Numbered from the stretch's first letter, positions 11,836 through 31,911 are shown. The stretch is 36,767 bases of DNA from Verrucomicrobiales bacterium (GCA_016793885.1 JAEUHE010000235.1:1-36767); one strand, 5' to 3'. Program-made: numbers and translations. The notes: generated by a model not told the origin, from the letters alone.

Positions 11836-14800
11836 CTATTCCCCGGATTGGGTGGGGCGGAACACATCGGGAGGGGTGAACTGAATCCGGGCAAGCCGAT
11901 CGGCATCACCCGCCAGCTTGATCGCCTGCAGGGTGCTTCCGGTCCAGGCAGGGAAATGCGAAACAACTACCGTGCCTTCGCGGGTGACCGCCAGATACTT
12001 TCTGCCTGCGAGCGATACATCCCCCCCAGCCCACGGCGCAGGAAGGTCAATCGCATCGGTCAGACTTTCCCCCGTGCGTATGTCCCAAACCTGAAACCTC
12101 CCGCTCGCCGTCGCCGTGACCAGTGTTGACTCCGGTCCGAAGGCCGCCCACCGGACTCGCCCTCGATGCGGAATCGTTTGGACCAGTTCGGCAGATCGCC
12201 CGAGGTTCCAAACTTTCGCAGTTTGATCGTCGGATACCGTCACCACGCGGCCGCCGGTCGCATCGAATGCCCCAAAGTTCGCCGGGGCTCCGTGCGGCAG
12301 CGTCAGTGCACTGCGGGAGTCCGATCCCAACTGCATCACCAGAGGGTGGTTGCCCGACGTGATCAGCAGCAGCCGCGTGGATGTCGGGTCTAGCTGAGTC
12401 ATTTGCACATCCGCTTTGCCTGCTCCCGTGTTTACCGGCGTGTTCTGCAGGTCTGGCATCCAGTGTTTCACGGCGAGATCATTGCCGGACGTAAACACCG
12501 ACTTTCCGTCGGCGCTCAGACTGGCATGCCGGACTTGCTCCGCATGGCTCAGGGCCTGTCCCACCGGAGTACCCGTCTCCGTGTTCCACAGCTGGGCATG
12601 TGCCCAGTGCAAGGCCAGCAGACGGGATCCGTCGCTGCTAAACTGCAGAGTTCGAACGCTTTCGCGCGAGCTCGAAAGCGTCTGGCGCAATCGCAGCTCC
12701 GGCAGCTCCAGCAAATGGATGTTGCCGGAAGTGGTTCCCACGGCGATCCAGCGATCGGACGGTTCGAGTGCAACTGAGACCAGGGGGTCATCCATTCTGG
12801 CTGTTCCAATCGGGGCTCCGGACGTTGAGTCGAACGCCCGAAGGACTTGGGTGCGATCCACTGTGAAAACACGGCTTCCATCAGGGGACAGCGCCGCACC
12901 GACAACGGCACCTTCGTGTCGTATCGTCGCCGGAGGATGTCTCGGCGCGATTTCCCGCCAGAGCATCGTGCTGCCGAAATACGTGGTGCTCAGAACTCGC
13001 CTGCTGTCCTGGAGGAAGTACACTGAATCCACGGCTTTGGCCTGATTCAGCTGCCCGCTCAATGCCAGCCCCGTGTCCGCTGCCCAGACGCGGGCACTCC
13101 CGTCGCTAGACCCGGTGACCACCCGCCTTCCATCCGGGCTGAACCTGGCTGAATTGACGCGTCCGGAGTGGCGCAGGGGAGCGCCCACCCGTGCCCCGTC
13201 CGCCAGGCTCCAGATCTGCGCGGTGTCGTCGTAGGAGGCGGTGATCAACCTCTGCCCGGAAGGGTCGAAGTCCATATCGCTGATCCGGTGTTTGTGTTGG
13301 AATTTCCAACGGGGCTTCTGGCCGGCGTTCATCTGCCAGACGTGGATTCCGCCTTCGTAACCTCCTACGGCCAGCCAGCGGCCATCCGAACTGAATCGGA
13401 GGATGCGCCCCGATGGGTTGGGTAATGACAGGGAGGGGGCGCTCTCGCCGGCCCGTGCCTCCCAGAGCCTGACAACCCCGTCGGCACAAGCTGCTGCCAA
13501 CCACCGTTCATCCGGGCTGAAGGCCAGGCCTGTGGCCGGCGAGGGCACTGATCGTTGCGGGCCTATCAGCTCGCCGTTGGCCGGGTTCCAGATCATCAGA
13601 GTGTTGAGCCTGGATGAGCTGGCGCCCAGCGCTCCCGAGGCGCTGATCGCCGCTGCTTCCAAATTGCCCCGGTGGTGGGGTAGTTCAACCTTGGTTCCCA
13701 GGTCTGGACCGCCGCGCAATTCAACCTGGCCGTTCGTCAGCCCCAGGACCAGCGTCCTAGCTTCGGGTCCGAAGTGGGCTCTCGTAACCGGCCCGCTGAG
13801 CGGGCTGGCAAACGGCTTGGGTTTTCCCGAACTGAGATCCCATCCGCACAGCTTTCCCTCCGTCGTCAAGGCCAGCCAGGCGGAACGATTCGTTTGCAGG
13901 ATGGTGGCGGCAAAAGTGGCCCCATATGCTGCCGTCTCGGTTTCGGGAAGATAGAATCCGCGGGATTCGATCGCGGATTGGAGACGCATGATTGTGGTGG
14001 TCTGGTGAGGGTCCTGCCGGACGAGGTGGGCCAGGATGGCGAGTCCGCGGGAGGTCTCGCCTTCGGACAGCAGCTCGTCGGCGCGCTGCAGCTGCATCCT
14101 TCGCAGGAGTGACTCCGTTCGTTGGTTGGCGGATCGTATCTTCCATGACGCCAGGTTGGTGGCGACGGTGCCTGCGATGACCGCGATCGTCAGCGCCACC
14201 GCGCCGGTTGCCGCCAGGGGGTTGCGGCGACACCACCGCCACACTCTCTCCATTCGGCCCTGGGGACGGGCGAGGATGGATCTGTCCTGCATCCAGCGTT
14301 CGAGATCCCGTGTCAGGGCCTCGGCTGAGTCATAGCGCTGCCCCACCGCTTTACGCAGGCATTTCAGGCAGATCGTTTCAAGATCCGGATCCACCTCGGC
14401 ATCCAGCGCACGAGGAGGCACGGGGTCTTCGTCGCTCACCATCCTGAGCGTCTCCAAAGGAGTGGAGGCCAGGAACGGCGGCACCCCAGTGAGCAGTTCG
14501 TAGAGAATGGCTCCCAGTCCATAAACATCCGTGCCGACCGTCAACGATGTCGTCTCGCCGGCAGCCTGCTCCGGCGCCATGTAAGCGGGGGATCCCAGGA
14601 TCGAGAGCGATTGGGTCAAGCCGCCATCCTGAGTGAGCAGCTTGGCGAGTCCGAAGTCGGACACATGGGGCCTGCCGGCTTCATCCAACAGGATGTTCGA
14701 TGGTTTGAGGTCCCGATGCAGCACGCCTCGCTGGTGTGCGTGTTGAACAGCCCGGACGATGGCGATGAAGTCCGGGGTGGAGAAACCAGGCAGGAGGAAT

Positions 14801-15303
14801 GGATGACTTCTGGAGCGCGAACGCTTGGACCGGGAGGCTGGGGCGTGTTCCGCGATGGCCTTTCCCAGGTGACCGCCTTCCATGAGCCGCATGGTGAAGA
14901 AGTGGGTGCCCGCGACATCCCCACTCTCGAACATGGGGACGATGTGTGGGTGATTGAGCTGTGCCGCGGCCTCAATTTCCATGCGGAACCGCAGTTGTGC
15001 CTCTGGGGATGCGAGTTGTCCGGGATGGACCATCTTGAGCGCCACCGTTCTTCCAAGACTGATTTGGCGTGCGCGGTAGATCACCCCCATGCCGCCCCGC
15101 GCGACTTCGCCCAACAATTCGTAGTCTCCGAAAAACCTACCTGCAGGGGGCGGTGGCAATGGGGAGGTCAAGCCGGCCTCCTGCTCCGTGGCGTCCCCGC
15201 CCGAGAGTGCCAGCTGGAGCAGGCAATGCGGGCAGCCGCTCTCTGCCGAGCCCCGCGGGAGGGTCAGCCCGCAGGTGGAGCAGGTTTGCGTTCCGTGGCT
15301 CAA
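11836..15303 (-). CDS. Membrane Ser/Thr protein kinase with zinc ribbon and WD40 double propeller
   Basis: This 1155-residue protein has four parts. First is a zinc ribbon (Cys 8, 11, 24, 27). Next is a Hanks-type kinase domain (about 58-335) with the glycine loop GEVARGGMG, lysine in VALK (K90), catalytic HRDLKPSN (196-203), DFG (216-218) and MAPE (242-245), so it looks active. A transmembrane helix follows (about 361-385). The rest, about 470-1140, contains some 14 WD40 units of the type FSPDGRRVVTGSSDGSARVW, enough for two seven-bladed propellers. The kinase is probably cytoplasmic and the propellers outside the membrane. An Arg/Ser-rich stretch (157-167) interrupts the kinase domain before helix E. 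The start is TTG with GGGAGGG upstream; there is no ATG before the ribbon. An ECF sigma gene ends 46 bases upstream, and such sigma-kinase pairs are known in Planctomycetes and Verrucomicrobia. Confidence 0.93.
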   Translation of the reverse strand: MSHGTQTCSTCGLTLPRGSAESGCPHCLLQLALSGGDATEQEAGLTSPLPPPPAGRFFGDYELLGEVARGGMGVIYRARQISLGRTVALKMVHPGQLASPEAQLRFRMEIEAAAQLNHPHIVPMFESGDVAGTHFFTMRLMEGGHLGKAIAEHAPASRSKRSRSRSHPFLLPGFSTPDFIAIVRAVQHAHQRGVLHRDLKPSNILLDEAGRPHVSDFGLAKLLTQDGGLTQSLSILGSPAYMAPEQAAGETTSLTVGTDVYGLGAILYELLTGVPPFLASTPLETLRMVSDEDPVPPRALDAEVDPDLETICLKCLRKAVGQRYDSAEALTRDLERWMQDRSILARPQGRMERVWRWCRRNPLAATGAVALTIAVIAGTVATNLASWKIRSANQRTESLLRRMQLQRADELLSEGETSRGLAILAHLVRQDPHQTTTIMRLQSAIESRGFYLPETETAAYGATFAATILQTNRSAWLALTTEGKLCGWDLSSGKPKPFASPLSGPVTRAHFGPEARTLVLGLTNGQVELRGGPDLGTKVELPHHRGNLEAAAISASGALGASSSRLNTLMIWNPANGELIGPQRSVPSPATGLAFSPDERWLAAACADGVVRLWEARAGESAPSLSLPNPSGRILRFSSDGRWLAVGGYEGGIHVWQMNAGQKPRWKFQHKHRISDMDFDPSGQRLITASYDDTAQIWSLADGARVGAPLRHSGRVNSARFSPDGRRVVTGSSDGSARVWAADTGLALSGQLNQAKAVDSVYFLQDSRRVLSTTYFGSTMLWREIAPRHPPATIRHEGAVVGAALSPDGSRVFTVDRTQVLRAFDSTSGAPIGTARMDDPLVSVALEPSDRWIAVGTTSGNIHLLELPELRLRQTLSSSRESVRTLQFSSDGSRLLALHWAHAQLWNTETGTPVGQALSHAEQVRHASLSADGKSVFTSGNDLAVKHWMPDLQNTPVNTGAGKADVQMTQLDPTSTRLLLITSGNHPLVMQLGSDSRSALTLPHGAPANFGAFDATGGRVVTVSDDQTAKVWNLGRSAELVQTIPHRGRVRWAAFGPESTLVTATASGRFQVWDIRTGESLTDAIDLPAPWAGGDVSLAGRKYLAVTREGTVVVSHFPAWTGSTLQAIKLAGDADRLARIQFTPPDVFRPTQSGE

Positions 15304-15306
15304 TGG

Positions 15307-15313
15307 CCCTCCC
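15307..15313 (-). promoter_or_regulatory. Ribosome binding site supporting a TTG start of the kinase
   Basis: GGGAGGG on the minus strand lies 3 bases before TTG at 15303-15301. The spacing is short, but it is the only strong site near the beginning of the zinc-ribbon coding region. Confidence 0.55.
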
Positions 15314-15349
15314 GGAGTTTGATGCCTCCCTCACCGTCAGCCGAAGATC

Positions 15350-16123
15350 TCATTCGATCCCTCCCGAGCGGCAGACCACATCCAGCAGGTATCTCAGTTC
15401 CTCCTCGATCTCGGAGGGCTGGACGATCGTTTGGGCGACCTCGTCACGGATCAGTTCCCCCAGCCGCTTCTTGAACCGGTGCACCTCCTGGCGGAGAGCA
15501 GGTTCGCTCATTCCCAGTGCGGATGCGCTGAGGGCGTAGTCGGGCAGGGAGGCTCCGGAGGCGACGAAAGGTTCGAGGTGGGGGAGACGATCCGCCTTGT
15601 CTCCTCGTGAATACTCCTCCCGCAGCCGGCAGCGCGCCCGGCTCAAAAGCTCGAGAGCCCATCGGCGGTCGTACAGCTGATCCGCCGTGAGGGAATCGGC
15701 CGGCTCCAGGCGATAACGATCCTCCGCCCCCGTCTGGTCCAGAGAGAAAGTGATCGTGCCTCCCCCCCGTTTCCTCGCCTGGGACCGATCCCACTCATTC
15801 ACCAGAAAGCACTTGAACGCGGTGAGTAGGAACCATCGGAACTTGCCCCGCTTGCGGTCCGCCACACCGACGTAGTTCTTTTGAAGCAGCTTCGCAAAAA
15901 ATTCCTGAGTGAGGTCCTGTGCCGTCTCCACCTCGTATCCTCGGCGCCGAACATAGGTATACAAGGGATACCAGTAGGTTCGGCAAAGCTCAGCCAGGGC
16001 CCGCGCTCCCTCGGGGGAATCCGGACGTGCCGCCTGCACCACTGAAGTCCAGTGCGTCGTGGCAAACGCTGCGTTTTGAATGGGCTCTTCGGAACTCACG
16101 GTGCTGCGTAATGTGGTGATCAC
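15350..16123 (-). CDS. ECF-family RNA polymerase sigma factor
   Basis: This 257-residue protein has sigma region 2 at about 45-115 (YWYPLYTYVRRRGYEVETAQ, then DLTQEFFAKLL, then FRWFLLTAFKCFLVNEWDR). Region 4 is at about 185-235, with an HTH-like stretch in ALGMSEPALRQEVHRFKKRL. The opening FATTHWTSVVQAA is typical of sigma factors paired with Ser/Thr kinases in Planctomycetes and Verrucomicrobia. The start is uncertain: GTG at 16123 or another GTG eight codons later, neither with a clear ribosome site. The kinase follows after 46 bases, so the two are probably one operon and the kinase may control the sigma factor. No classical transmembrane anti-sigma gene is beside it. The three-gene giant-protein run is divergent from it and a plausible target. 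Confidence 0.9.
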   Translation of the reverse strand: MITTLRSTVSSEEPIQNAAFATTHWTSVVQAARPDSPEGARALAELCRTYWYPLYTYVRRRGYEVETAQDLTQEFFAKLLQKNYVGVADRKRGKFRWFLLTAFKCFLVNEWDRSQARKRGGGTITFSLDQTGAEDRYRLEPADSLTADQLYDRRWALELLSRARCRLREEYSRGDKADRLPHLEPFVASGASLPDYALSASALGMSEPALRQEVHRFKKRLGELIRDEVAQTIVQPSEIEEELRYLLDVVCRSGGIE

Positions 16124-16264
16124 GCCGATCTATACGAACTCCACCTACTCTCCATTTCGGCTTCCAACTAAAAAACTGTGTCACAAATCCCGACTCACCC
16201 TGAATTGCTTATTGATGACTGTTGCCCAGCTGGATCCCAGAGCTGGGGCAGGGTATCCGAAATT
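16124..16264. promoter_or_regulatory. Divergent intergenic control region
   Basis: This 141-base stretch separates the leftward sigma/kinase genes from the rightward giant-protein genes, and it is richer in A and T than the flanking coding DNA. It is the natural place for promoters of both units. I could not define reliable -35/-10 boxes or an ECF-type signature. If the giant gene starts at the GTG at 16178 instead of 16265, the region shrinks to 54 bases. Confidence 0.4.
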
Positions 16265-19200
16265 GTGCGAAAAACTAGCTGGAAGTTATTTTTGTGGAAA
16301 CACTTGTGGTTGGTGTGGTGGGTGGTTTGGTCGGAGGTGGCATCCGGCCAGATCACTCACGGAATCGCCAGTCTGCAGGTCACACGCGCCTCGGAGTGGG
16401 TGATCGATTCGGACGCCTCCAATCCGGCTCCGGGATGGGACCGCGATGGCCTGCCGGTGGAGATTGACGTGCGGTCCATCAACTCTACCGCAGCAAACCA
16501 GTCGGTGGCCTATAGCGTCGTGTTCCGCCTCCTGGATGAGTTGGGAGCCGTCCACCCGTTGTTCCAGGCAGATGGGACCACGAATGCCGCCTACACCCAC
16601 TTTCTGGTTCAGAATGCCTTCAATCTCGGTCCGAACGGAACAACTTTACGAACCCATACAGCTTTCCTGAAACCGGCGTCGCGTCTGGATGCCCTGAGGC
16701 GCTATCGCGTCGAAGCTCGGGTCTTCCGACCTCGGGTCGACCCTCCCGCAGCCACCTCGTTGTCGGTTCTTCGCAGGTACTACCACTTCATCAACACGTC
16801 GCCGAACGATCTCCCGGTCAACACGATCGTGGTGGCTAACAACGTCATCGTCTCGCGACGCGGGGCGCTGGCCACGGATCCGGACAAGTCAGGTTTCGAG
16901 GCCACGGTGAGCTACACTATCCGTCGATACGACGCCTACAACGCCTCGCACATCCCCGCGGATGACATTCCCATCCGGTTCACCTACGAGCTTCAGGAGG
17001 CCGACACCGGGGCGGTTGTTCCGATCGCGCTTGGGGTCACCAATATCCTTGCGGGGGTGTTCCGCCACGCGGCGGCGGTGGTGGGACAGCCGACAGAACC
17101 GTACGACAACGATCGCAACCAGGTGATCATCCTAACCCCCGACAACGGTGTTCAGCTGGACTCCGTTAACAAGACCTACCGAGTGGTGGTGCGAATCGCG
17201 CATCGAGAGGTTCCCGGCATCCAGATCTTTCGCCCCTCCAATGAGGTGGAAACGAGCGCCCAGAGGCTGCTGCACTTCAACGGGCGGTTGTTTTTCGGCC
17301 CCATCGAGACCCGTCTGACCCAGCTCAACAACTCGCCGGGCGTGATTCAGTTGGTGGCGGGCCAGTACGTGCGATCGGGTATCCAGATCGCCCCGGGCTC
17401 TGGGCAGGTGGTATTGGTCCCGGGGTGGACTTTCGGAGGTGGAGCTCCGTTCGACGTCCGCTTGCTCCCCAACGGAAACGCTTTGTTCGACGACACATTC
17501 CTTCCCCTGGGCCAGCAGCCGCTGGAGGCAAAGATTGAGAACGTGCGCGTCAGTTATTCAGCCACCCAGCTGAACCAGCAGGGACTGGCCTCCACGCTGA
17601 AGGTTTGGCTGCCGGCGGGCTTCGGGTATCGGCTCTCAACCAACACCCACGTTCTTCGCAACAGCATCACCTGGGTGCAGACACCAATCGGGCTGAACGG
17701 GCGCCCGCTCGATCCCGCGTTCACGTACAAGCCGGTGGGCGGATTGCAGGCCGCCGAGGAATCCCAACCCCTGTGGTTCCCGGTGAGTTCCATCAACTGG
17801 ATCGTTGCCCAGGGACGGTTCAATGTGGGCAGCAGCACTATCACTCCGGAGCATGTGCGATCGGACGAATACGCGCGGTTGGATGACGTAGCAGATTCCT
17901 TGGTGGACGCTGACGCGGCGGTCAAGCGGTCCAATGACGGCTACTTCGAGCGTGTGGACTCAGCGACCGCGCCGATCGTCCTTGCCGATACGAACTGCGT
18001 GGGGCGGCTCACGACCACGATCCGGTTTAATCGCGGGAGTTTTCGAAGTCATTTTCCGTGGAACACACGCGTTGCGTGGAATGTGGGCGGCGAGAATGTG
18101 GTGATCTCCGGGACGATGCCCAACGCGGACGTGCTGTCCTCGGTTTCATCTGTCGCGGTGGCCTATTCGCGCGGGTGCTTGGAGGGTGACTGTCCGGGGG
18201 AGGCGCAGTTGGCCACGATCACGATGGAGCCCACGAACAGCGTTTTGCGGTTTACCCGCGATGGCGGTCTCGCGGCCGTGGGCCGGACCACCGCTCCGGC
18301 CCGGCTTCAAATGGGCTACATCCCGTCGCTCAACGATTACACGCACGAGGCTTTCCTGTTCACCGAGGCGGGATTCCACATGCCGGGGCGAATCTTGCGC
18401 GGCCGCTACTCAGACCTTGCGCCTCAGGAACGCGCGGGCGCGCTGCTCTACGCGGGCGTGTTGGCCTCGAATCCGAAACAGGCCTCCAGCGAGGAGCGTC
18501 GGGACGTGGAGGGATCCGCCTTCGAAACGCGGTATCGACAGGGGTTGGCGGACTACGCGGGGCTGAACTTCCGGCTGCGGCAGGATGCCGAGTCCAGCGG
18601 ACGTTCGATTCTCGGTGGCACTCTCTCTCCGCAGTATCCCCTGAAGCAGAACTCCAAATACTACCTCCGGCACGCAGGTGTCAGCGGAGTACACCAAGCC
18701 TTGGATGGAGGATTCCCGCCTGAGATGGAGATCTACGGCTACGACTTCGAGTTCACCCGCTTCGCGTTCAACCTCCTCGAGAATCAGCTCCTCGAAAGTG
18801 AGATCAACGGGCTGATCCACGTTCCGTATCCCAGTGAGTTCGATCAGCAGTTCGCCGGGCTTCAGTTCGACTGCCTGGGCGGGCTCACCGGGGTGGGCGC
18901 GCTCGAGGGCAGCGGCACCCAGACCCTCGATTACTGGAACAACACGTTCACTCCCCGGTCGCTCGTTTTTCAGCGGAATCCCGATCAGGAGTGCGATCCC
19001 ACCGTCGGACGCATGGTGATGGCGGTGGAGACTCGGATTGCCAATGTGGAGGAGGCGTTGACGGGCAATCTCGGATTCCTGCCGGATGGGAACCTGATGT
19101 CTGCCGACGACGGGCTTGAGGGGGTGGACTCGCGTCTCACGATGCCGACCCTGGTGCAGATGCCGGGTCCGACCAACGAGATCTATGTGGTCACTCCGGT

Positions 19201-21688
19201 GACGGGGGCGTATTTCAATGATTACCGGCAGAAACCCGATCAACCTGCGGAGGACCTGGGTTGGGCGAACTTCGCCGGGCGGATGGATGTGTCCTTCTTC
19301 CCCGACCTGGAGGTTCATGTTCAGACCAGCGGCAATGGAACCCAACCTGAGGCTTTTCTGGATATGATGGGTGGCTGGCCGTTGGATCCGGACAACGATT
19401 CGAACCACGGGTGGGTCAACGGGGCAGGGGATCATTTTTTCACGGACACCCGGTTTGATTCCTCGAACCGTGGTTTTCCGCCGGATGTCAGCCTCGAAGG
19501 TTACCGAAGCCCTGCTGATTCCGATTCGTTCCGCGTGCGTGCACGGCATCACTGGCAGAACATCCATACCTTTGAGTTCCCGCTCGACTGGTTGCGCGCA
19601 GCGCGGATGTTCCGATCGCCCGAGCCCGTCCGCCGGCAAATGGTTGTTCTGGAGACGGAGCGTCAAGTGGAACGCATCACCCCGAAACACACCGAACTCA
19701 CCTTTGGAGTGCAGCTGGAGGTGCTGCCCCAGGCCAACCTTGCCAACATCGCATCCCAGATCGCCCAGCGCACCGGCATCAGCGATGCCCTGGCGGAGGC
19801 CACCGGCCAGCAGTTCACCGAGGAGATCGCCGAAGGGTACACCCGGATGGATGAGCTGCTGAACTCCAGTATGGAGACATTCTTCGATCAAGTGTTTACC
19901 GACGCGATCGATCCCAGTCTCGATGATTTCTATGACTTCTTGGCTGGGGAGTTTGATGCGAACAACCCGCTGGCGTGGCAGGGAGATCTCGGGGGGTACA
20001 TCAACACCCAACTGGTTCCAGATTTAAAGACCGGGTTAAAGGGGATCGGGGGTGATCTGAACCAGGGGATCATTCAGAAGCTTGGCGATTATGTCGGCAA
20101 GGGGAACAAAGGGATTACCAAGGCTGCGGAACTCATCGGAAAGGTGGACGAGAAACGGGGCAAGATCGGCGACGTTGTGGGGAAGATCATTGAGAAACTG
20201 GCGCCTCAGCATTCCGCCAGCGCACTTCCGGAGCGGATCGACGCATTCCTCGAGAGGGCTGAACCTACCTTCGAACAGCTTCAACAGGGACTCGAACGGC
20301 TGTCGGATGTATTGGACGAGATCCAGGCTCACATGTTGGATGTGGGCAACCTGCAGAGCCCCGGGGGCATGGGCCTCGAGATCAAGGAGGTGCTCGACGC
20401 TGCCAATCCTGAACTGGATACCATGGCGCTTTCCATGGGGAACGCGATCCAGGTGTATCTGGACGACATTGTGAGCGACGGTGATTCCCCGTTTCATGAC
20501 TACACGGACCAGGAGATTCGGGATCGGATGCGGACGGAGGTGCGGACTCGATGGCTCGGCAGTGCGGCGGCCGCGGACGTTCGTCAGGTGATCAAGGAGC
20601 GGCTCTATGATAATGACGCGGCTTCCCGCGAGATCCTCGACTCGGTTTTCTCTGAGATCAACCGGATCATCCGCGGCTTGGTGAAGATGTCGGCATCGGA
20701 AGCCGCGGATGGCTTCTCCGAAATGATGGGCGCGACGGGGCAGAAGGTGCTCAGCGCCGATGTTGATGGATATGCGCACATCAACGGAGATTCGCTGAAG
20801 GAACTGCGGTTGGACGGCCGGTTTCAGTTCAAAATCGTGAAGGATGTGGATTTTGGAGCCTACCTGCGCATACGCGAACTGGATTCGGAGGGGACGCGAA
20901 CTTGCAATGAAGATCTGGTGGGCGCGACGGAGGTGGTGCTGGGCGCCAAAGATGTGCCTCTGAGTTGGAAAAAGGACGGACTCAAGGCCTCGATCGAAAC
21001 GAAGTTTACCTTTGGGAACGAAGGCGGCTTCGCCGTCAAGGGGCTCGGTGGGGGATTCCAGCTGGTGGGGGAGATGGAGTTTGATGAAGTGAAGATGACC
21101 CAGCTTTCGGGTGCCGTGGCCTTCGGGGTGGGGGAGAATTATCTCAGTGGAGGAGCCGGGTTCGAGGTGAGTGGATGGGAGTTCACGGGCGGGATTTTCT
21201 TCGGCAAAGCCTGTTCCCTCAGTGCGATCGAAATTTGGGACCCTGCGGCGGCGGACGCGCTCGGCACCACGACCTTCACCGGGATGTACTTCTACGTTGA
21301 AGGCTGGGTGCCTCTCAACGAAATCCTCCTCATCAAGTCGTCCTGCCTGCTGAAACTGTCCGGTGGCATGGGCATGGGGCGAGGCTTCTTCATCGAGGGA
21401 CCCACGATCCTCGCCAAGGTCAAATACGGGCTCAGCGGCGAGCTGCTCTGCATTATGAACGTGAAGGGCGAACTGACCGGCGTCGCTTCCATGAAGCTCT
21501 TCAACCCCCTGGAGGGCGCGGGTCAGGACGGTTACGCGAGCGGGTTGCTCGACAAGGTCCGCGACGGACTCACGCTCAAGGCCATTGGAAAGTTCACCGG
21601 TTCACTCGGTTGGTGCCCCCTTTGCCTCGAGATCTCCAAGGAGATCGGGGCGACTTACAAGGGCGGCAAGTGGAAACTGGAAAAATGA
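16265..21688 (+). CDS. Giant exported protein 1 of three-gene cluster, unknown function
   Basis: About 1807 residues. The frame is open from a GTG at 16178, but I prefer the GTG at 16265. There a short basic stretch (VRKTSWK) and a Trp-rich hydrophobic core (LFLWKHLWLVWWVVW) make a compact signal peptide, and AGGG lies 11 bases upstream. Residues about 35-1150 are mostly strand-like and polar, with C-x4-C in GCLEGDC. Residues about 1150-1490 switch to amphipathic helix (NIASQIAQRTGISDALAEAT, LEQLQQGL-type heptads). From about 1490 on, Gly-rich strands recur (GGFQLVGEMEF, LSGGMGMGRGFFIEGPT), ending with CPLC near 1783. I recognise no catalytic motif and no known domain with certainty. Its stop overlaps the next start (ATGA). 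Confidence 0.85.
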   Translation: MRKTSWKLFLWKHLWLVWWVVWSEVASGQITHGIASLQVTRASEWVIDSDASNPAPGWDRDGLPVEIDVRSINSTAANQSVAYSVVFRLLDELGAVHPLFQADGTTNAAYTHFLVQNAFNLGPNGTTLRTHTAFLKPASRLDALRRYRVEARVFRPRVDPPAATSLSVLRRYYHFINTSPNDLPVNTIVVANNVIVSRRGALATDPDKSGFEATVSYTIRRYDAYNASHIPADDIPIRFTYELQEADTGAVVPIALGVTNILAGVFRHAAAVVGQPTEPYDNDRNQVIILTPDNGVQLDSVNKTYRVVVRIAHREVPGIQIFRPSNEVETSAQRLLHFNGRLFFGPIETRLTQLNNSPGVIQLVAGQYVRSGIQIAPGSGQVVLVPGWTFGGGAPFDVRLLPNGNALFDDTFLPLGQQPLEAKIENVRVSYSATQLNQQGLASTLKVWLPAGFGYRLSTNTHVLRNSITWVQTPIGLNGRPLDPAFTYKPVGGLQAAEESQPLWFPVSSINWIVAQGRFNVGSSTITPEHVRSDEYARLDDVADSLVDADAAVKRSNDGYFERVDSATAPIVLADTNCVGRLTTTIRFNRGSFRSHFPWNTRVAWNVGGENVVISGTMPNADVLSSVSSVAVAYSRGCLEGDCPGEAQLATITMEPTNSVLRFTRDGGLAAVGRTTAPARLQMGYIPSLNDYTHEAFLFTEAGFHMPGRILRGRYSDLAPQERAGALLYAGVLASNPKQASSEERRDVEGSAFETRYRQGLADYAGLNFRLRQDAESSGRSILGGTLSPQYPLKQNSKYYLRHAGVSGVHQALDGGFPPEMEIYGYDFEFTRFAFNLLENQLLESEINGLIHVPYPSEFDQQFAGLQFDCLGGLTGVGALEGSGTQTLDYWNNTFTPRSLVFQRNPDQECDPTVGRMVMAVETRIANVEEALTGNLGFLPDGNLMSADDGLEGVDSRLTMPTLVQMPGPTNEIYVVTPVTGAYFNDYRQKPDQPAEDLGWANFAGRMDVSFFPDLEVHVQTSGNGTQPEAFLDMMGGWPLDPDNDSNHGWVNGAGDHFFTDTRFDSSNRGFPPDVSLEGYRSPADSDSFRVRARHHWQNIHTFEFPLDWLRAARMFRSPEPVRRQMVVLETERQVERITPKHTELTFGVQLEVLPQANLANIASQIAQRTGISDALAEATGQQFTEEIAEGYTRMDELLNSSMETFFDQVFTDAIDPSLDDFYDFLAGEFDANNPLAWQGDLGGYINTQLVPDLKTGLKGIGGDLNQGIIQKLGDYVGKGNKGITKAAELIGKVDEKRGKIGDVVGKIIEKLAPQHSASALPERIDAFLERAEPTFEQLQQGLERLSDVLDEIQAHMLDVGNLQSPGGMGLEIKEVLDAANPELDTMALSMGNAIQVYLDDIVSDGDSPFHDYTDQEIRDRMRTEVRTRWLGSAAAADVRQVIKERLYDNDAASREILDSVFSEINRIIRGLVKMSASEAADGFSEMMGATGQKVLSADVDGYAHINGDSLKELRLDGRFQFKIVKDVDFGAYLRIRELDSEGTRTCNEDLVGATEVVLGAKDVPLSWKKDGLKASIETKFTFGNEGGFAVKGLGGGFQLVGEMEFDEVKMTQLSGAVAFGVGENYLSGGAGFEVSGWEFTGGIFFGKACSLSAIEIWDPAAADALGTTTFTGMYFYVEGWVPLNEILLIKSSCLLKLSGGMGMGRGFFIEGPTILAKVKYGLSGELLCIMNVKGELTGVASMKLFNPLEGAGQDGYASGLLDKVRDGLTLKAIGKFTGSLGWCPLCLEISKEIGATYKGGKWKLEK

Positions 21689-24600
21689 AAACGTCCGTTC
21701 TTCAACGCTCGGTTCTGTTCCTGTTGCTCAGTCTGCAACTGCCGGCTCAGCAGTCCCTCGACCAAATGATCTCCACCACCGGCACGACGGTGACGGACAA
21801 TCAGGGGAGGCACTGGGGCTATGTGGTCTGGGGTAGCCCCACCACCGGCACCCAGGGAGACGTCCAGGTCCGAGGCTATAACCTGACACATACGTGGCCC
21901 TCCAAGTGGAGGCTGGGCGCGACCAAGGACCGTCGGATCGCAGTCTACCGCAAAACCGGAGCGGCGGATGCAGCGGCGGATTATCAACGACTTGCGGTCA
22001 CCGGCATCCAGACTGATCCCATCGTGATCGATGCTCTGCTTGAGCGCGCCGCCATCCTGGGCCACAGCCGGCAGTCCCTGGAGGAACGCATCGACGGTCT
22101 CTTTGGTGACCTGGTGGACCAGTCGTCACCCACCCTCGGGGTGAAGGTTTCGGCCGTGATCCGCGGCGGCCTGGACAACCCCAACCACTGCGAGAATCTG
22201 ATGCTGCTTAGCCGCCAGCATGCGGGGCTGGCGTTCTGTCTGGGCCTGGCCCATGCGGAGCTGATTCCCGGGCCGATTGGCACGCGCAGTACCTTCGAAC
22301 TTCGGCTTCACGACGCGGCCTCCGGAGCCGACGAGGGCGTGATGGGCCGGGTGACGGTGACCGCCGGGCAACCGCTCGTCCTTCCCCCTCCGGGTAAGCC
22401 GATGGAAACCATCGATGTCTCCCCCAAGGGTGATCTGAACGTGAAGATCCTGTGGTCGACGCCCCCTGCGCTTCGTCGGCTTTCGCTCGCGAACTACGGG
22501 TTCAACGTCTACCGGATCAACGCCGCGCATGCCGAGCAGCAGGGATTCCACGTCGCGCCGCCGTCCGTGGCCACACTGCTCAGCCTCGTCAACGCCGGAC
22601 AGCACGGTTACCGGCTGAACCTGGCTCCGGTGCTCGCATCCCAGCAACTGGATGATTTGGAGGTGGCGGCGCTGGCTGCTGGACCGACGAACTACTTCTT
22701 TAGCGATTCCAACGATCGTGCCGTTCCCGAGGAGGGTCCGCCCCAGGAGCCTTTCAAGAACGGCGCGGAGTTTTACTACTTCGTTACCGCACGCGATGTG
22801 TTGGGTCGCGACGGTCTGGTGTCGGAGGGGCGCAAGGTTCGGATCTGTGATCGGATGCCCCCGCTTCCGCCGCGCTACGTTCGGGTTGAAAACGTTTACG
22901 CGCACGATCCTGGCACTGGAAAGCGCGAGCGAAGGCTGAAGATCATCTGGGATCAAAACATCGACCAGGCTCCCGAGCGAACCACCGGCTATTACGTGCA
23001 TCGGTGGACCAGCCTTCAGGAGATGCAGGACTTCTCCGACATTCCCAACGCGGCACGCATTGTGGGTCCCATTCCGCACATCGTAGGACAGAAGGAGAAC
23101 TCGTTCATCGACACCACTCCGTTGTCACCGAACGAGGCCTTTCAAGTGGGGAAGCCCTTTTGGTACACGGTGCGGGCCATCGATCACGGCGCGTGTGCGC
23201 CCGGGGGGAATGTTTCCCACAATTCGTCGCCGGCATTTGGGGTGATCCGCGAGTTTGAAGGGCCGAAGGGCGGAGGTGGCAACATCCGGATCCGCTGCGT
23301 GCAGCCTACGCTGACGTTCAAGGCCCCGGCGGTCTCGGAACCGGATCCGCTCCCCGACCAGTCCGTGCATGACTACCGGCTCGAGTGCATTCGAACGAGT
23401 TCCAAAGTGAAGCATGTGGATTTTCTCTGGTTCCCCACGGGCTCCCTAGGTTCGGCCCGTCACCTCGGGCGGCGTGTGTTCCGGTCGGGTGAGGATTCGG
23501 TGGACATGACCGTGCGCTGGCGGTGGTCGGAGTTTGGGCTGGGCACGACGCCCCGGGTGATCTGCCGCATCACCCTTGATAACGGGAAGACCACCGAAGC
23601 CCAGGTGAACCTGGCTGCGCCCGCCTCGCCTGGCCTGCGCCTGCGGGCGAGATTCGAGGCGGGCATCACGGTGATTCGTGGACCTCGGACCATCGAGTGC
23701 GGCGTTCACGACCCGGTTCCCGAGGACGGGGACGATTCCGGGCTGGTGGATCCCTTGTGGGTGGATCTGTTCTTCCCCGACGACTGCACCGAATGGCGGC
23801 TGTATCGCAGCGTGGATCAGGGTCCCGCGTCACCAGCACACGAGCTGACGCACCTGATCCAGCAGGGGGAAGGCGACTTTGGGGTGGGGGATGTGCTGCC
23901 GGTCCGGGATCAGGCGATCCCGGCGAACGCCTGCGAGATTTGCTACTTCATTCAATACCTAGACAAGCACGGCAATGCCGGTCCATTGCTGCCGATTGGG
24001 TGTGTTCGGACTGAGGGGACGCAGGGGCTGCCGACGCCGGTGTTGTCGAAGATTCAGCCCTTGGGCACCGCCGAGAATCCTTCCATGGAATTGAAATGGA
24101 CTTGTGCCACCCCCGGGGTGGAACGGTTTGAGGTGTGGGTAGGCGGAATGCCGGAAGCTCCCCCGCAGGATCTATCCAGCGATCTGGAATTCGTCGACGA
24201 GACCCCGGCCTCTCCGTTCTTCGCCTCTTCATCGAGGCCATCCCAGGTGCTCTATCGACGCTATCACACGAGGAGGATCGGCCCCGGGTTTGGTACCGGA
24301 CCGCAGTTTACCGTGCCGGCAAAGTGTTTTCTCGAGAACCGATGGGTGGTCGTGGTGCGTGCCCTGGGTGCCAGCGGCGAACTGGGGCCGTTGAGCAATT
24401 CGGAGGGATTTATCTGGCAAGTTCCCGGCACCACGGATCCGAACGTTCCGTGGCCGGCCCGCGCCCTGCCTGCGCCGTCGGTGGGCACGTTTCCACAAGT
24501 CCTCGCCCGGTTCATCCCTGCCTCGCTCAGCTTGAGCAATCCCTGGGAGGGGGTTGCGGTCCGCATCGGAACGGTCAACATGGGCTTCACCACGGATCCC

Positions 24601-25017
24601 GCGCCCGGTCAACCGGATCGTTATCAGGGACAGTCCGATCCCCTGGACCATGTGTATCGGTCTCCGTCGAACGACCGGCTGCTCGGTGTGGTGCTCTATC
24701 GATGGCAGGTTCCCAATGAGGTGTATCCTGAGGTTTCCGGCGATGTGATTCAGGTATCGCCGATGATCGACAAGATCGCGTGGGAGAAAAGCGGTGCGTC
24801 TGCCGAAGCGGGCAGCACCCTGATTCGAGATCCGTTCATCCGGCTTTTTCCCGAGCTGCCTCCCCAAAACGATCCGGTGCGCGCACGCGGGATCTACCTG
24901 CTCGATACGCAGCCGGTGCTCGAGGGCGCCGCCTACCAATATTCGCTGGTGAGGTTTTCGCCGGTCACTCGTGAGCCCGTGGAATCGATCCACACCAACC
25001 CTGTCACCGTGCCATGA
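21685..25017 (+). CDS. Giant exported protein 2 of three-gene cluster, FN3-like modules
   Basis: About 1110 residues. The ATG at 21685 overlaps the previous stop by 4 bases, and it is followed at once by a signal peptide (MKTSVLQRSVLFLLLSLQLP, cleavage near AQQ), which settles the start. At least one fibronectin type III-like module is visible at about 395-500: PPRYVRVENV, then KIIWDQN, YYVHRW and FWYTVRAID. Similar strand patterns recur at about 230-370 (YGFNVYRIN, FYYFVTARDVLG) and 690-960 (EWRLYRSVD, ICYFIQYLDKHGNAG, FEVWVGG, WVVVVRALGASGELG). Cysteines cluster in the second half (DDCTEW, ACEICYF, GCVRTE, WTCATP). No catalytic motif is seen. It is probably an extracellular binding or scaffold protein and is translationally coupled to both neighbours. 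Confidence 0.87.
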   Translation: MKTSVLQRSVLFLLLSLQLPAQQSLDQMISTTGTTVTDNQGRHWGYVVWGSPTTGTQGDVQVRGYNLTHTWPSKWRLGATKDRRIAVYRKTGAADAAADYQRLAVTGIQTDPIVIDALLERAAILGHSRQSLEERIDGLFGDLVDQSSPTLGVKVSAVIRGGLDNPNHCENLMLLSRQHAGLAFCLGLAHAELIPGPIGTRSTFELRLHDAASGADEGVMGRVTVTAGQPLVLPPPGKPMETIDVSPKGDLNVKILWSTPPALRRLSLANYGFNVYRINAAHAEQQGFHVAPPSVATLLSLVNAGQHGYRLNLAPVLASQQLDDLEVAALAAGPTNYFFSDSNDRAVPEEGPPQEPFKNGAEFYYFVTARDVLGRDGLVSEGRKVRICDRMPPLPPRYVRVENVYAHDPGTGKRERRLKIIWDQNIDQAPERTTGYYVHRWTSLQEMQDFSDIPNAARIVGPIPHIVGQKENSFIDTTPLSPNEAFQVGKPFWYTVRAIDHGACAPGGNVSHNSSPAFGVIREFEGPKGGGGNIRIRCVQPTLTFKAPAVSEPDPLPDQSVHDYRLECIRTSSKVKHVDFLWFPTGSLGSARHLGRRVFRSGEDSVDMTVRWRWSEFGLGTTPRVICRITLDNGKTTEAQVNLAAPASPGLRLRARFEAGITVIRGPRTIECGVHDPVPEDGDDSGLVDPLWVDLFFPDDCTEWRLYRSVDQGPASPAHELTHLIQQGEGDFGVGDVLPVRDQAIPANACEICYFIQYLDKHGNAGPLLPIGCVRTEGTQGLPTPVLSKIQPLGTAENPSMELKWTCATPGVERFEVWVGGMPEAPPQDLSSDLEFVDETPASPFFASSSRPSQVLYRRYHTRRIGPGFGTGPQFTVPAKCFLENRWVVVVRALGASGELGPLSNSEGFIWQVPGTTDPNVPWPARALPAPSVGTFPQVLARFIPASLSLSNPWEGVAVRIGTVNMGFTTDPAPGQPDRYQGQSDPLDHVYRSPSNDRLLGVVLYRWQVPNEVYPEVSGDVIQVSPMIDKIAWEKSGASAEAGSTLIRDPFIRLFPELPPQNDPVRARGIYLLDTQPVLEGAAYQYSLVRFSPVTREPVESIHTNPVTVP

Positions 25018-28000
25018 ACCGGAAAAGTGTGAGTCAGCATTCAACCCTGTCGCTGGCGGCTCTGGGCGCTCTGATCCTCGGCGGCTGCCTGGCCGTGTGT
25101 GGTGGACGGCTTCAAGCCCAGACAGGGTTTGTCCTCGACACCGGTCGCGAGCTGTCGCTCACGGCTGACTTCAATGGCGACGGTATTGAAGACGCCGCTT
25201 TGGTGGATCAGGAGTCCGGCGGCGTGTTTGTTGCCATCGGGCTGGCGGACGGCTCTCTTCAGTGGGGTACGCAGCAATCCGCTGGCATGTCCCCGGTCTT
25301 GTCCGTTGCGGCCGGCCGATGGGCACAGCTCGGGCGTGATTCCCTGGGTTTAGGCGGGCCCTTGGCAAACCGGATTCATTGGGTGGCGGCGCCCGCTGAT
25401 CCGGTCTGGGATGAAATGCGCACGATCGATGTCTCGTGGGAAGCCGCGCATGCGGTCGCGGCCATGGATGTGGGCGGTCCGGGAAACACGGCGTTCGACG
25501 ACTTCCTGATCCTCAGTCGGCCCGGACCGGGCTTGAACTCGGCCTGGACCGCCATGAGGAATCCCGCCGGGGCGCCGACCCTCCCGGTGTTCAACCAGCC
25601 GTTTCCGGGGACGCTCGGGCAACTCAACCGAATCGCCATCACTCCGGATAACAAGCGCTATCTCGCCGCTGTTTTCGCCCTCGGATCCCAGACGGAGCTT
25701 CGAGCTTGGGATCTCAGTGGTGGAGCGGCGGCGATGGTGACCCGGTTGACGAATCTGCCCCCAGCCACGCGGTATATCAGCGGGCCCTTCGGCCCCGCCA
25801 ACGAGGTCATGGCCATCGGGTACGGCCTGGGGTCGATGGTCATGCGGGCCGGGCGATTGGATTTACCTGTGCCCGAGGTGCGCACTGTCATTCTGCCTGC
25901 TACCCTGACGGCTTCGGTCGGTTCGATCGCCGGCCTGCGAACCATCCCCGGTCCGGGCCGGCCCGACATTCTCGCGTTCGGAACGCTTCCGGGCACGGCG
26001 CTGGTGCTGCGGTTCAACGGCGTGGACACCATGAGTATCGCCCAAACCTTGCAGATTCCGGAGGGCGATTTGATCACCGGCATGCTGACGCGTTCGGATG
26101 GTGGATTTCAGGTGTTCACCGGTACCGAGGGAAGATCGAGCCAGTTCCATCGCTATCGTCGATCCGGCAGCCAGTACCAATTTGTGGGATCGGGTGTCAT
26201 GCCCAAACTGAATCAGGCGATGTTGGGCGGGAACGTGTTCCAGTTCGATCGCGAACCGTTCGTGAATCCAAACCCCGGACTGTTGCGCACGCATCGTGTT
26301 CCGGACTGGACCAGCCAGTTCGGGCTGGGCGGAATGCCGGTGGAAGTGCAGGTGCTGCGCGAAAGGTTCGGGACATCCGCGCAGGGACTAGATAACCCCG
26401 CGGTCTTCCCGGTGGGGCCGGCCCATCCGGATGCAGATTTCGGGCTCGTGAATCAATACCATGAGGCCCTTTCCCTCTTCACCTTTTCACAGACCCTGGG
26501 TGATGCGGTGTCGGACGTGACGATACATCCGCCTTCCGGGACCTATCGCAGCGGCGTTCAGGTTCGATTCACGACCGGGCAGCCTGGACATCAGGTGTAC
26601 TACCGGCTGAGTCAGGCTGCCCCCTGGCAGCTCTATTCGGGCGCTCCACTACACCTGTTCAGTGCGACGACGATTCACTATTACGCCAAACCCGCTCTGG
26701 GCAACGCGAAGTCCGCCATTCAAGAAGCAAGTTACGAATTCCTGATTCCGGAAGGCCGGGTGGATTCCGATGCCGATGGAGTGCCGGATTTCGTGGAGCA
26801 GCATCTGAATCTGGACCCCGCCGCAGGGGGAGACTCGGATCAGGATACGTTCAGCGACATCGAGGAGATCATCGCGGGAACGGACCCAGCCAATGCCGGA
26901 TCGATACCCGCGCAACGGCCGGCGTCGCAGTCGGACGCGGGGATGCGGTTCCGGCTGACACCACTGCCGTTTCACCCGGTGAGCGGTTCCGTTACCCAGG
27001 CGGCGGTCGGTGTCTCTGTGCGTTTGGTGGGGCTGAACGGGAATCAGGTGGGTTTGGGGGAGGTTGGTGTCAGCTTGATCCAGCCAGGGGGGACGGCGGT
27101 GCTGGGGGACGTACGTCCCGACGACGGGCTGCCTTTCCTGGTGATGGCCACGGATCCCCACTTTCCCCTGCGTGGCGAGACGGAGGATCCCATCCACGGC
27201 CGCGAGTTGATCGGACTGATGCGAATTCCTCCCCCGGCACAACCTGTGGTGAACTATGCGTACGGTGCCAGCGGAGGCGGATTGGCCGCAGAGGCCCAGG
27301 CCTGGATCGCTGCCATGAAAGCCGCAGTGAAGGCAGCGGAGCCCCAGCCGATCGAAAGATCCTTCGGTGCCCGGGATGCACTGGTCGCCCGGCTGTTCGA
27401 ACGCGGAATATCCCTCGCTCTCGTCTCTCGGGGCCTCAGTGAAGCGGGCAACCTGACACTCTTTCCGTTCCGGATTGCGGAGGCCGGGCGATGGGTTCCT
27501 CCCCTGCAAACCTGGAGGGGTGGGGCACGATTCAACGAAACTACCAATCCTCCCGCGCCTTTCGGCGTGGAGGAAATGATGGCGTTCCACGATCTCCTGG
27601 CCGCACGGGTGTTGTCGCCGCCCACTCCCGAGTTGCAAGCGCTGGTCACCTTGTGCGAGCAGATCCATCTCCTCAGCGCCCAATCCCACAACGCCGATCC
27701 GACGCGATACCCGCTGCCCTTCGACGCGCTCCGCAGCTGGATCTGGTCGGGTGTGCTTCCGGGGGGATATGCGACCGATGTGCCCGGGTTGCCCAGCCTG
27801 CTCGAGCCCGCAGAGGCGGGAGTGGCTCAGGCACTGGCGCTGCTCCCATCGAGGCAGCGGATAAATTGGATCCTCCGGGTGCGCGATGACTCCTTCACTG
27901 GACCGTGCGCCACGCTGGACACCACCGACGGCACCTCCGGGCCGGTGCATCTGTTCGATTCAAGCGGGGAGGCGTTTTTGTTCCCGGATGGATTTGTCCT

Positions 28001-28562
28001 CCTTCCCGGCACCCGCGTGCGGGTGGAGGGCTATCCCACCACCGCCAGCGGCCCGTGCGCGGGCACCAAGGTGGAGGTGCTGCAGGCATCACTGGTGTCG
28101 CTGCCTGAGTCGGTGGGAGGCGATGCCAACCAAAACGGGGTGCCGGATGACTGGGAACTTCTGTTCCTGGGCGGGCTGATCATGGATCCCTTTCAGGATT
28201 CCGATCAGGATCAGGTTTCCGATCTGGAGGAGTTCCTGGGAGGATCGGATCCCCAGGACCCCGGTGCCGTGCCTGCGATTTCGGTTCCCGACGTGACGCC
28301 GCCGGAGATCGAGATCGTGGTGACACCCGAGGGTGGGGTGGAGGTGGAGTGGCAAGGCAAGGGGACATTGCCGCCCCAGCTGGCGAACCTGAAGTACGTG
28401 GTGCTGAGCGGAGGAGACTTGGAATCCATTGCAACACCAGTGGCTCAGCACTCGGCGAGCGAGGGTGGGCGGGTGGTCTTGCGCTTGCCCGAGGCGGCAG
28501 CCGGCACTGCGACGTTCTATCGTCTCAGTCTCTGCTGGGGAGATTGTTCCGGGCGGGATTGA
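25014..28562 (+). CDS. Giant exported protein 3 of three-gene cluster, VCBS-like, chitobiase-C-like and Ca-binding repeats
   Basis: About 1182 residues. The ATG at 25014 overlaps the preceding stop (ATGA). A signal sequence occupies residues 1-36; LILGGC near 20-25 could be a lipobox, but a normal cleavage after LQAQ is also possible. An FG-GAP/VCBS-like repeat follows (TADFNGDGIEDAALVD, about 50-65), and propeller-like strands continue to about 490. A chitobiase/beta-hexosaminidase C-terminal-like module is at about 502-580 (HPPSGTYRSGVQVRFTT, then IHYYAKP). Two acidic thrombospondin-3/EF-hand-like Ca-binding stretches are present: DSDADGVPDFVE with DSDQDTFSDIEEIIAGTDP (about 582-630), and DANQNGVPDDWE with DSDQDQVSDLEEFLGGSDP (about 1036-1080). 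It is probably a surface or extracellular structural protein; no enzyme motif was found. Confidence 0.87.
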   Translation: MNRKSVSQHSTLSLAALGALILGGCLAVCGGRLQAQTGFVLDTGRELSLTADFNGDGIEDAALVDQESGGVFVAIGLADGSLQWGTQQSAGMSPVLSVAAGRWAQLGRDSLGLGGPLANRIHWVAAPADPVWDEMRTIDVSWEAAHAVAAMDVGGPGNTAFDDFLILSRPGPGLNSAWTAMRNPAGAPTLPVFNQPFPGTLGQLNRIAITPDNKRYLAAVFALGSQTELRAWDLSGGAAAMVTRLTNLPPATRYISGPFGPANEVMAIGYGLGSMVMRAGRLDLPVPEVRTVILPATLTASVGSIAGLRTIPGPGRPDILAFGTLPGTALVLRFNGVDTMSIAQTLQIPEGDLITGMLTRSDGGFQVFTGTEGRSSQFHRYRRSGSQYQFVGSGVMPKLNQAMLGGNVFQFDREPFVNPNPGLLRTHRVPDWTSQFGLGGMPVEVQVLRERFGTSAQGLDNPAVFPVGPAHPDADFGLVNQYHEALSLFTFSQTLGDAVSDVTIHPPSGTYRSGVQVRFTTGQPGHQVYYRLSQAAPWQLYSGAPLHLFSATTIHYYAKPALGNAKSAIQEASYEFLIPEGRVDSDADGVPDFVEQHLNLDPAAGGDSDQDTFSDIEEIIAGTDPANAGSIPAQRPASQSDAGMRFRLTPLPFHPVSGSVTQAAVGVSVRLVGLNGNQVGLGEVGVSLIQPGGTAVLGDVRPDDGLPFLVMATDPHFPLRGETEDPIHGRELIGLMRIPPPAQPVVNYAYGASGGGLAAEAQAWIAAMKAAVKAAEPQPIERSFGARDALVARLFERGISLALVSRGLSEAGNLTLFPFRIAEAGRWVPPLQTWRGGARFNETTNPPAPFGVEEMMAFHDLLAARVLSPPTPELQALVTLCEQIHLLSAQSHNADPTRYPLPFDALRSWIWSGVLPGGYATDVPGLPSLLEPAEAGVAQALALLPSRQRINWILRVRDDSFTGPCATLDTTDGTSGPVHLFDSSGEAFLFPDGFVLLPGTRVRVEGYPTTASGPCAGTKVEVLQASLVSLPESVGGDANQNGVPDDWELLFLGGLIMDPFQDSDQDQVSDLEEFLGGSDPQDPGAVPAISVPDVTPPEIEIVVTPEGGVEVEWQGKGTLPPQLANLKYVVLSGGDLESIATPVAQHSASEGGRVVLRLPEAAAGTATFYRLSLCWGDCSGRD

Positions 28563-28633
28563 TGCCGAGCAAGGGGTGTCAGTCGTAATCCCGGAACGGG
28601 GTGATCCGTTCTGTGGTTCAGCGGCGGGGTTCG

Positions 28634-29668
28634 TCAGCGGCGGGTGTCGTCGGGACGCAGAGCGTGTTCAAACGACGGCATGATCTGAGAAAAATCAACG
28701 TGGGTACCGGTGAATTTGCCGATGATGACGGGGAAGGTTTTGCGTCCCCACTTCAACAATTGTTTCTGACGCTCGCGAGAGTTGAATTGCGGGGCCGGGA
28801 TGTCGCTGATGAAGCGCTCCAATGCGGTGCGGGTTGGGAGCGCAAGCCGCCTCTGCTCGTCTGGTGTGAGTGTGGCGGCTTCGAGAAAATTCAGCGCGGA
28901 TCCCATGGCGTTGGAGTTCCCAGCAATGCTCTCCAAGACTGTTGCCAGCCGGGTCGCGAAGTCCGGCAGTTCGCGCAACCGCGCGGTGGCTGCCTCACGC
29001 GTCTGGCGGGTGCGATACACTCCCGCCAGATCGAGTATTTCCATGAATCCCTGCTCGCTTTGCGGATCGAGCGCGGAGATTTTGGCGAGATGCTCCGGTG
29101 TGGTGTCCCGAGCAGTCAGGATTCGGTGGACGAGATCTCGTACACCGAAGCCGGTGTGGACGAGACGATGTCCGACGAACCCCACACAGACGACAAGGCT
29201 CAAGGCGGCGAACAGGGTCCACGGCAATCGCAGCCATTGAATGGGAACTCCTGGTATCAGTTTTTGATTGAGGCTCAGGAGCACCAGGAATCCGGTGGCG
29301 AAGGGGATGAGGTATATCCCCGGAGTGTAGATCACACGCGGCGTGAATCCGGGCCGCATATACAGGGCGATGAACACGAAGGTAGCGACCGCCAGCGCGA
29401 CACTCGCGCCGACGGTCAACGTGTAGAGCGCGGGCCGGCCGAGGCGCAACCCGTCGAATCCGCCGCTGGCGGTCATGCAGAGCAGCGCGACCATCAACAG
29501 TAGCCACAGCGGAATCAAGCTGAACAGGACCGGTGTCACCCAGCGATCGTCGTTCAAGTGCTTGTCCGCGTAGTCCCAGAGCAGTCGTTGCAACGGCAGT
29601 AGGAAAACGAGCGCGGCCAGAGCGACGCACACGTTGCCGATGATTTGATTGACAGGAGAAACGTTCAT
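28634..29668 (-). CDS. Five-helix integral membrane protein of unknown function
   Basis: This 344-residue protein starts at the ATG at 29668, with AGG just upstream (GCAGGCAAATG). The frame is open further upstream, but that part reads as unrelated Arg/Gly-rich sequence. Five hydrophobic helices are evident: VCVALAALVFLLPL, VLFSLIPLWLLLMVALLC, ALAVATFVFIALYM, IYLIPFATGFLVLLSL and LFAALSLVVCVGFVGH. A helical, charged C-terminal half (about 180-344) follows, with no motif I recognise (EQGFMEILDLAGVYRTR, LPDFATRLATVLESIAG). It converges on the giant-protein cluster with a 71-base gap. The start overlaps the stop of a possible 44-codon gene. Confidence 0.8.
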   Translation of the reverse strand: MNVSPVNQIIGNVCVALAALVFLLPLQRLLWDYADKHLNDDRWVTPVLFSLIPLWLLLMVALLCMTASGGFDGLRLGRPALYTLTVGASVALAVATFVFIALYMRPGFTPRVIYTPGIYLIPFATGFLVLLSLNQKLIPGVPIQWLRLPWTLFAALSLVVCVGFVGHRLVHTGFGVRDLVHRILTARDTTPEHLAKISALDPQSEQGFMEILDLAGVYRTRQTREAATARLRELPDFATRLATVLESIAGNSNAMGSALNFLEAATLTPDEQRRLALPTRTALERFISDIPAPQFNSRERQKQLLKWGRKTFPVIIGKFTGTHVDFSQIMPSFEHALRPDDTRR

Positions 29669-29799
29669 TTGCCTGCGTTGTTCGGAGTTTCCGAGTCCGC
29701 GCGGGTGGCCACCGAGGCATCCGATCCGTCGCGGAGTGTTGCCAGAATGGATTCTCTTACGGATTTGCGCCATTCGACTTTGGTCGTATAGGTCATCAT
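29665..29799 (-). CDS. Possible 44-residue small protein coupled to the membrane protein
   Basis: The minus-strand frame from ATG 29799 (or the adjacent ATG at 29796) encodes MMTYTTKVEWRKSVRESILA followed by a polar, acidic tail ending NNAGK. Its TGA overlaps the ATG of the downstream membrane protein by 4 bases, an arrangement typical of coupled genes and repeated elsewhere in this window. The content (amphipathic helix start, acidic tail) looks protein-like. There is no clear ribosome site, and the frame is also open upstream without an obvious start. It may be a real small gene, or a longer frame with a non-ATG start. Confidence 0.4.
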   Translation of the reverse strand: MMTYTTKVEWRKSVRESILATLRDGSDASVATRADSETPNNAGK

Positions 29800-31876: not shown

Positions 31877-31911
31877 GATTACCAAGACATCGTTCCCTCC
31901 TCCTCAATCTT

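Follow-up and report, generated by a model that had tools for sequence, protein, structure and literature searches.

Soils, lakes, sediments and guts are rich in Verrucomicrobiota, bacteria whose surface biology consists in large part of nameless proteins. In the DNA analysed here (36,767 nucleotides from a Verrucomicrobiales bacterium, referred to below as the window), three very large genes, designated A, B and C, follow one another on the same strand. This locus raises the question of whether the three genes form one system, where their products would reside and whether any known system resembles it.

The original prediction had proposed three large exported genes in series, and we could confirm this reading: the open reading frames encode 1807, 1110 and 1182 residues and each product begins with a Sec-type signal, namely MRKTSWKLFLWKHLWLVWWVVWSEVASG followed by Q in A, MKTSVLQRSVLFLLLSLQLPAQ followed by Q in B, and MNRKSVSQHSTLSLAALGALILGGCLAVCGGRLQAQ in C (Table 1). 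The frame of gene A also has an alternative start, GTG 16178. Using a simple heuristic, we observed comparable export signals in 65/75 A, 69/81 B and 64/72 C proteins, while lipoboxes were few in these families. The two 4-nt ATGA overlaps on which the predicted coupling was based are present at both junctions. As evidence for coupling they held only for B/C, where the overlap is exact in 33 of 70 loci; at A/B it is exact in 4 of 76, and we rejected it as a conserved coupling signal there. The case for treating the three genes as a set therefore rests on conserved synteny and co-inheritance instead of on the overlaps. A sigma-70 consensus scan of the region 15200–29900 gave no promoter-like site, and terminator-like sites in the same region were below chance level.

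Table 1. Features of the three-gene locus and its regulators (window coordinates)
Feature	Coordinates	Strand	Residues	Remarks
Ser/Thr protein kinase gene	11836..15303	-		WD40 repeats; beside sigma gene; candidate sensor partner
ECF-type sigma factor gene	15350..16123	-		Divergent from A, 141 bp from A start; candidate regulator
Gene A	16265..21688	+	1807 aa	Giant exported protein, hallmark of the unit; GTG start 16265
A signal peptide (inferred)	16265..16351	+	1-29	From sequence, heuristic
A N-terminal region	16352..18064	+	30-600	Fastest-diverging part
A conserved beta core	18065..19729	+	601-1155	Cys 638/643/870/910
A helical region	19739..20743	+	1159-1493	Long amphipathic helices
A C-terminal domain	20747..21685	+	1495-1807	~16 amphipathic antiparallel strands; probable outer-membrane beta-barrel
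A C-terminal domain cysteines				Cys 1547/1650/1694/1729/1784/1787
ATGA overlap A/B	21685..21688	+		A stop / B start
Gene B	21685..25017	+	1110 aa	Exported protein
ATGA overlap B/C	25014..25017	+		B stop / C start
Gene C	25014..28562	+	1182 aa	Exported protein
C CHB_HEX_C_1-like domain	26529..26708	+	506-565	
C TSP3-like repeats	26751..26933	+	~580-640	Ca-binding
C second TSP3-like segment	28110..28283	+	~1033-1090	

Adjacency and order across Verrucomicrobiota strongly upheld the predicted association. We compared 85 distinct A genes whose 3′ end was intact: B lay directly downstream in 76, three were at a contig border and six had a different arrangement; C adjoined B in 70 of the 71 loci with room to see it. 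Of the six deviating loci, two are rearranged to B-C-A, in two on short contigs C immediately precedes A, and the others are L101 and L150. In L101 (5789-12389), from one Pontiellaceae genome, a 2124-aa frame lies between A and B; L150 is the sole locus where A and B are apart, on opposite strands. An apparent A–B gene fusion in L086 (2969-aa frame) was rejected: it is only an overlapping open frame, the two genes having an ORF each at this locus. Of 97 related genomes, 19 contained A and the identical 19 contained B, neither gene ever occurring without the other, and a search with C's own sequence found C at most of those A/B loci. Moreover, pairwise distances were correlated across 63 loci of ~30% identity (r = 0.93 for A/B, 0.85 for A/C and 0.87 for B/C), the best of 999 permutations reaching 0.14. 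There is hardly any doubt that A, B and C constitute a conserved functional unit.

Four copies of the trio are present in the 8.7-Mb host genome, the three outside the window being ~30% identical to the one within it; their order is A-B-C on contigs C200 and C31, and B-C-A on C231. As copies within a genome were no closer to one another than to copies in other families, they represent old types. From a scan of the genome contigs of ~85,000 species with a single nine-residue pattern, which distant relatives in other phyla could escape, we obtained 79 loci, all labelled Verrucomicrobiota except two records titled only 'bacterium'. The lineages with loci include Kiritimatiellales/Pontiellaceae, Opitutales, Limisphaerales/Pedosphaera and Verrucomicrobiaceae/Prosthecobacter. 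In an even draw across the phylum, a Pontiellaceae A query detected A in only 6 of 115 species, and the trio is thus an accessory trait. Neither A nor B had an acceptable Pfam, NCBIfam or PADLOC family, PADLOC found nothing for the trio, and we found no described system with this trio in the open-licence literature. The trio is an undescribed, phylum-typical module. Within 12 kb it obeys clear rules (the three partners are fixed, the copies repeated and the sensors linked) that the libraries fail to annotate; as a defined target, it could allow three 'hypothetical proteins' in each copy to be replaced by a named surface system.

Where would such a unit reside? A predicted model of A (residues 608-1807, 69 sequences, mean pLDDT 82.9, pTM 0.64) has the beta core, then the helical region and finally the ~16 strands of the C-terminal domain. 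Its description as a beta/helical/Gly-rich giant was accurate, the order being beta, helical and then Gly-rich beta. The C-terminal strands of the model are mostly 11–17 residues long in a domain of 313 residues, and their hydrophobic and polar faces alternate only slightly more than in the other strands of A. The best VIA-align matches for this part were outer-membrane barrels (Z 10–12.6 over 190–280 residues, rmsd 8–11 Å). Foldseek with A gave no match at E < 1e-3, the top ones being ApoB100/MTP (E 0.016), and a PDB profile search with A gave helical-composition matches only.

The C-termini of the A family provide the strongest independent hint. The known signature for outer-membrane assembly is a terminal F or W with hydrophobic residues at −3, −5, −7 and −9 (PMC3869937). 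In 81 A proteins, we observed that the last residue was F, Y or W in 65% (background 9%; B 3%, C 1.5%), and that 81% and 74% had a hydrophobic residue at −3 and −5, respectively, against 14–20% at −2, −4 and −6. Unlike the published signature, Y is also common at the terminus and −7 and −9 are not hydrophobic, which suggests a resemblance in part; the A protein of the window ends in KWKLEK, without a terminal aromatic residue. Cysteines co-occur in the pairs 1694/1729, 1784/1787, 638/870 and 643/910, as expected outside the cytoplasm, and Cys 1547 and 1650 are nearly invariant. When close A pairs were compared, the N-terminal 600 residues had diverged most and the C-terminal domain least. LamG- or MAM-type domains gave 4 and 5 matches among 26 A proteins; they sit in an N-terminal extension that is missing from the A protein of the window.

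The C-terminal signature, the strands, the cysteine pairs, the diverging N-terminus and the LamG/MAM-type domains are together consistent with an A protein that is anchored in the outer membrane and exposes a fast-evolving head. On the predicted model, residues 1495-1807 are probably an outer-membrane beta-barrel, and we consider it quite likely that A sits in the outer membrane. The surface location proposed in the original prediction thereby gains independent support from the C-terminal signature and the predicted strands.

The other two proteins also agree with what had been predicted. B, described as an FN3-like, Cys-containing protein, has in its predicted model (61 sequences, mean pLDDT 85, pTM 0.53) a mixed alpha/beta N-terminal part (~28-230) followed by a string of FN3/Ig-like domains (~231-914). 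Its best Foldseek matches were FN3 arrays of receptors and filaments (E 1e-12 to 1e-15), within residues 231-914 Foldseek matched FN3 receptor ectodomains at E 1e-12 to 1e-13 and VIA gave Z ~10–11, and the cysteine pairs 388/504, 538/672, 568/627 and 753/773 co-occur in the family. By sequence, Pfam fn3 was detectable in only 1 of 26 B proteins, and a PDB profile search with B gave no match. As judged from the tandem FN3-like folds of the model, B is a rod of such domains. C, for which VCBS-like, chitobiase-C-like and Ca-binding repeats had been proposed, has FG-GAP-like repeats, a chitobiase-C-like domain and two TSP3 Ca-binding-type segments. The Pfam matches of C in the window are weak (CHB_HEX_C_1, E 4e-4; FG-GAP_3, E 3e-3), and the assignment is clear at the level of family sequences, with TSP3 in 13/22 and FG-GAP_3 in 9/22 proteins. 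The length of C varies from ~650 to >2100 aa across loci, and a PDB profile search with C gave no match. In line with the reported lack of catalytic motifs, no enzyme domain was found in A, B or C. Weak matches to the second TSP3 segment of C number in the dozens in the host genome and fall mostly within very long ORFs, which suggests a widely reused module of exported proteins.

The trio is often accompanied by regulators. The ECF sigma family encoded next to A in the window was adjacent or one gene away in 10 of ~85 loci, and some loci have sigma, kinase, A, B and C in one run. With ~27 genes of this family in the host genome and 36 in a relative, very roughly 3 chance neighbours are expected per ~85 loci, and the association is moderate. 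Such numbers of ECF sigma/WD40-kinase copies suggest that many signalling lines run in parallel, each with target genes of its own. Other loci are flanked by a WD40-bearing histidine kinase, response regulators or LuxR-type regulators; L122 and L124, which fell in a LuxR/response-regulator cluster, were discounted, having only a receiver domain in common. WD40-bearing kinases have been described for Planctomycetota (PMC11032199). The linked pair is of the known kind of ECF sigma–Ser/Thr kinase (WD40) pairs of the PVC superphylum; unlike those, the pair in the window is tied to an undescribed surface module. Regulator families recur beside the trio, but no conserved CAZyme or other enzyme neighbour does.

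From these observations, we propose that A, B and C, having signal peptides, would leave the cytoplasm via Sec. BAM would then fold A into the outer membrane through its C-terminal strands, as the strands and the F/Y signature of the relatives would imply, with the large and probably disulfide-bonded N-terminal part facing outside. B (the FN3 rod) and C (FG-GAP/TSP3) might assemble on A as a stalk or as accessory ligand-binding subunits, given the near-obligate co-occurrence and correlated evolution. We assign a rough probability of 0.55 to these steps taken together, that is, to a conserved module for an outer-membrane-anchored surface complex; that the three proteins form a physical complex is, taken by itself, a likely arrangement, held with a little less assurance than the location of A. 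Going by the domain types, the complex could bind extracellular ligands, likeliest polysaccharide or surfaces, for attachment or capture; this binding or adhesion role is a guess to which we give somewhat less than even odds. Judging from the neighbourhoods, a linked sensor may switch expression: the ECF sigma factor and WD40 kinase here, and a histidine kinase/response regulator or a LuxR-type regulator elsewhere.

Other readings of the locus have to be weighed against an outer-membrane-anchored surface complex. A could be an outer-membrane translocation or export port in the autotransporter/two-partner or BcsC/PgaA manner, with B and C as secreted or accessory partners. BcsC and PgaA have a helical domain and then a 16-strand barrel, the layout predicted for A, where the helical region directly precedes the ~16 strands, and both the PgaA barrel and BcsC were matched by fold (4y25, Foldseek probability 0.96, VIA Z 11.1; 6tzk, Z 10.6). 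However, these matches are no better than those to porins generally, the superposition being weak (rmsd 9–10), and A differs from both in its 1150-residue, mostly beta region before the helices. Pfam found no TPR, POTRA, plug or autotransporter domain (beta-domain or passenger repeats) in the A protein of the window and 26 A proteins, nor do synthase or glycosyltransferase genes recur beside the trio; we regard a port as unlikely. The top Foldseek matches, ApoB100 and MTP (E 0.016–0.03), and the resemblance of the helical region to apolipoproteins A-I/A-IV/E in a profile search would suit a soluble or secreted giant of the apolipoprotein/large lipid transfer protein type, whose amphipathic helices and sheets hold lipid. 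Those E-values are not significant, though, and the helical region also matches designed bundles and coiled coils, which points to composition; Pfam detected no LLTP (Vitellogenin_N) module of the ApoB/MTP/vitellogenin type in A, and the C-terminal F/Y signature better suits an outer-membrane protein. A lipid carrier is hence improbable.

Three large coupled proteins with a VCBS/FG-GAP subunit also recall Tc layouts, and A might be the pore or receptor-binding part of a Tc/Rhs-like or other contact toxin complex. We consider such a weapon very improbable and the least likely of port, lipid carrier and toxin: the A, B and C families (26, 26 and 22 proteins, respectively) showed no RHS, SpvB, Tc or toxin domain, their neighbourhoods have no recurrent immunity-like gene family, and PADLOC gave nothing. 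That A, B and C are three unrelated surface proteins which are neighbours by chance is scarcely credible. C-like halves do occur alone elsewhere, but A and B were never apart in the 97 genomes, and the 76/85 adjacency and the correlated distances over 63 loci of ~30% identity speak against it; for A and B, synteny and co-occurrence already refute chance.

We compared the outer-membrane-anchored complex with known surface systems. Like SusC/SusD of Bacteroidota, it would combine an outer-membrane barrel with large exported partners, and it has several paralogous copies per genome and often linked ECF or two-component regulators. The domains are different, however: Pfam matched neither a TonB plug domain nor SusD in 26 A, 26 B and 22 C proteins, and conserved CAZyme or other enzyme genes are missing alongside. 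With a membrane barrel at its C-terminus and an adhesive part at its N-terminus in one giant exported chain, A would resemble the type V autotransporters, but it differs from these and from intimin/invasin in its ~16 predicted strands, its long helical region and the near-obligate B and C. A bolder and rather doubtful proposal is that the trio is an undescribed, phylum-specific tripartite surface machine in which a giant barrel-anchored A with exchangeable lectin-like heads joins an FN3 rod and a Ca-binding propeller. A genome would have as many as about four such machines of anciently diverged paralogous types, often controlled by a linked sensor, and their task, for example polymer capture or cell-surface attachment, would be one that no known system performs.

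Part of C has a life outside the trio. Stand-alone FG-GAP/VCBS and TSP3 proteins of Verrucomicrobiota (e.g. a 737-aa C-like protein) share its N-terminal half and adjoin a Gfo/Idh/MocA-like oxidoreductase gene, not A and B. C is therefore not confined to the trio, since this half is also found by itself in different gene neighbourhoods. Three such genes (L164, L165 and L166; ORFs of 735–749 aa) are ~49% identical among three genomes, and each is followed by a Tat-signal Gfo/Idh/MocA-like oxidoreductase gene, which makes a separate conserved pair. One four-member oxidoreductase-like cluster recurs near the trio. In the window, positions 9219-11618 (minus strand) encode a 799-aa protein with two weak alpha/beta-hydrolase (dienelactone hydrolase/esterase-like) stretches, opposite which lies a probably spurious 732-aa ORF; downstream of the trio, 3-keto-disaccharide hydrolase and ThuA-like genes adjoin each other at 31133-32832 (plus strand).
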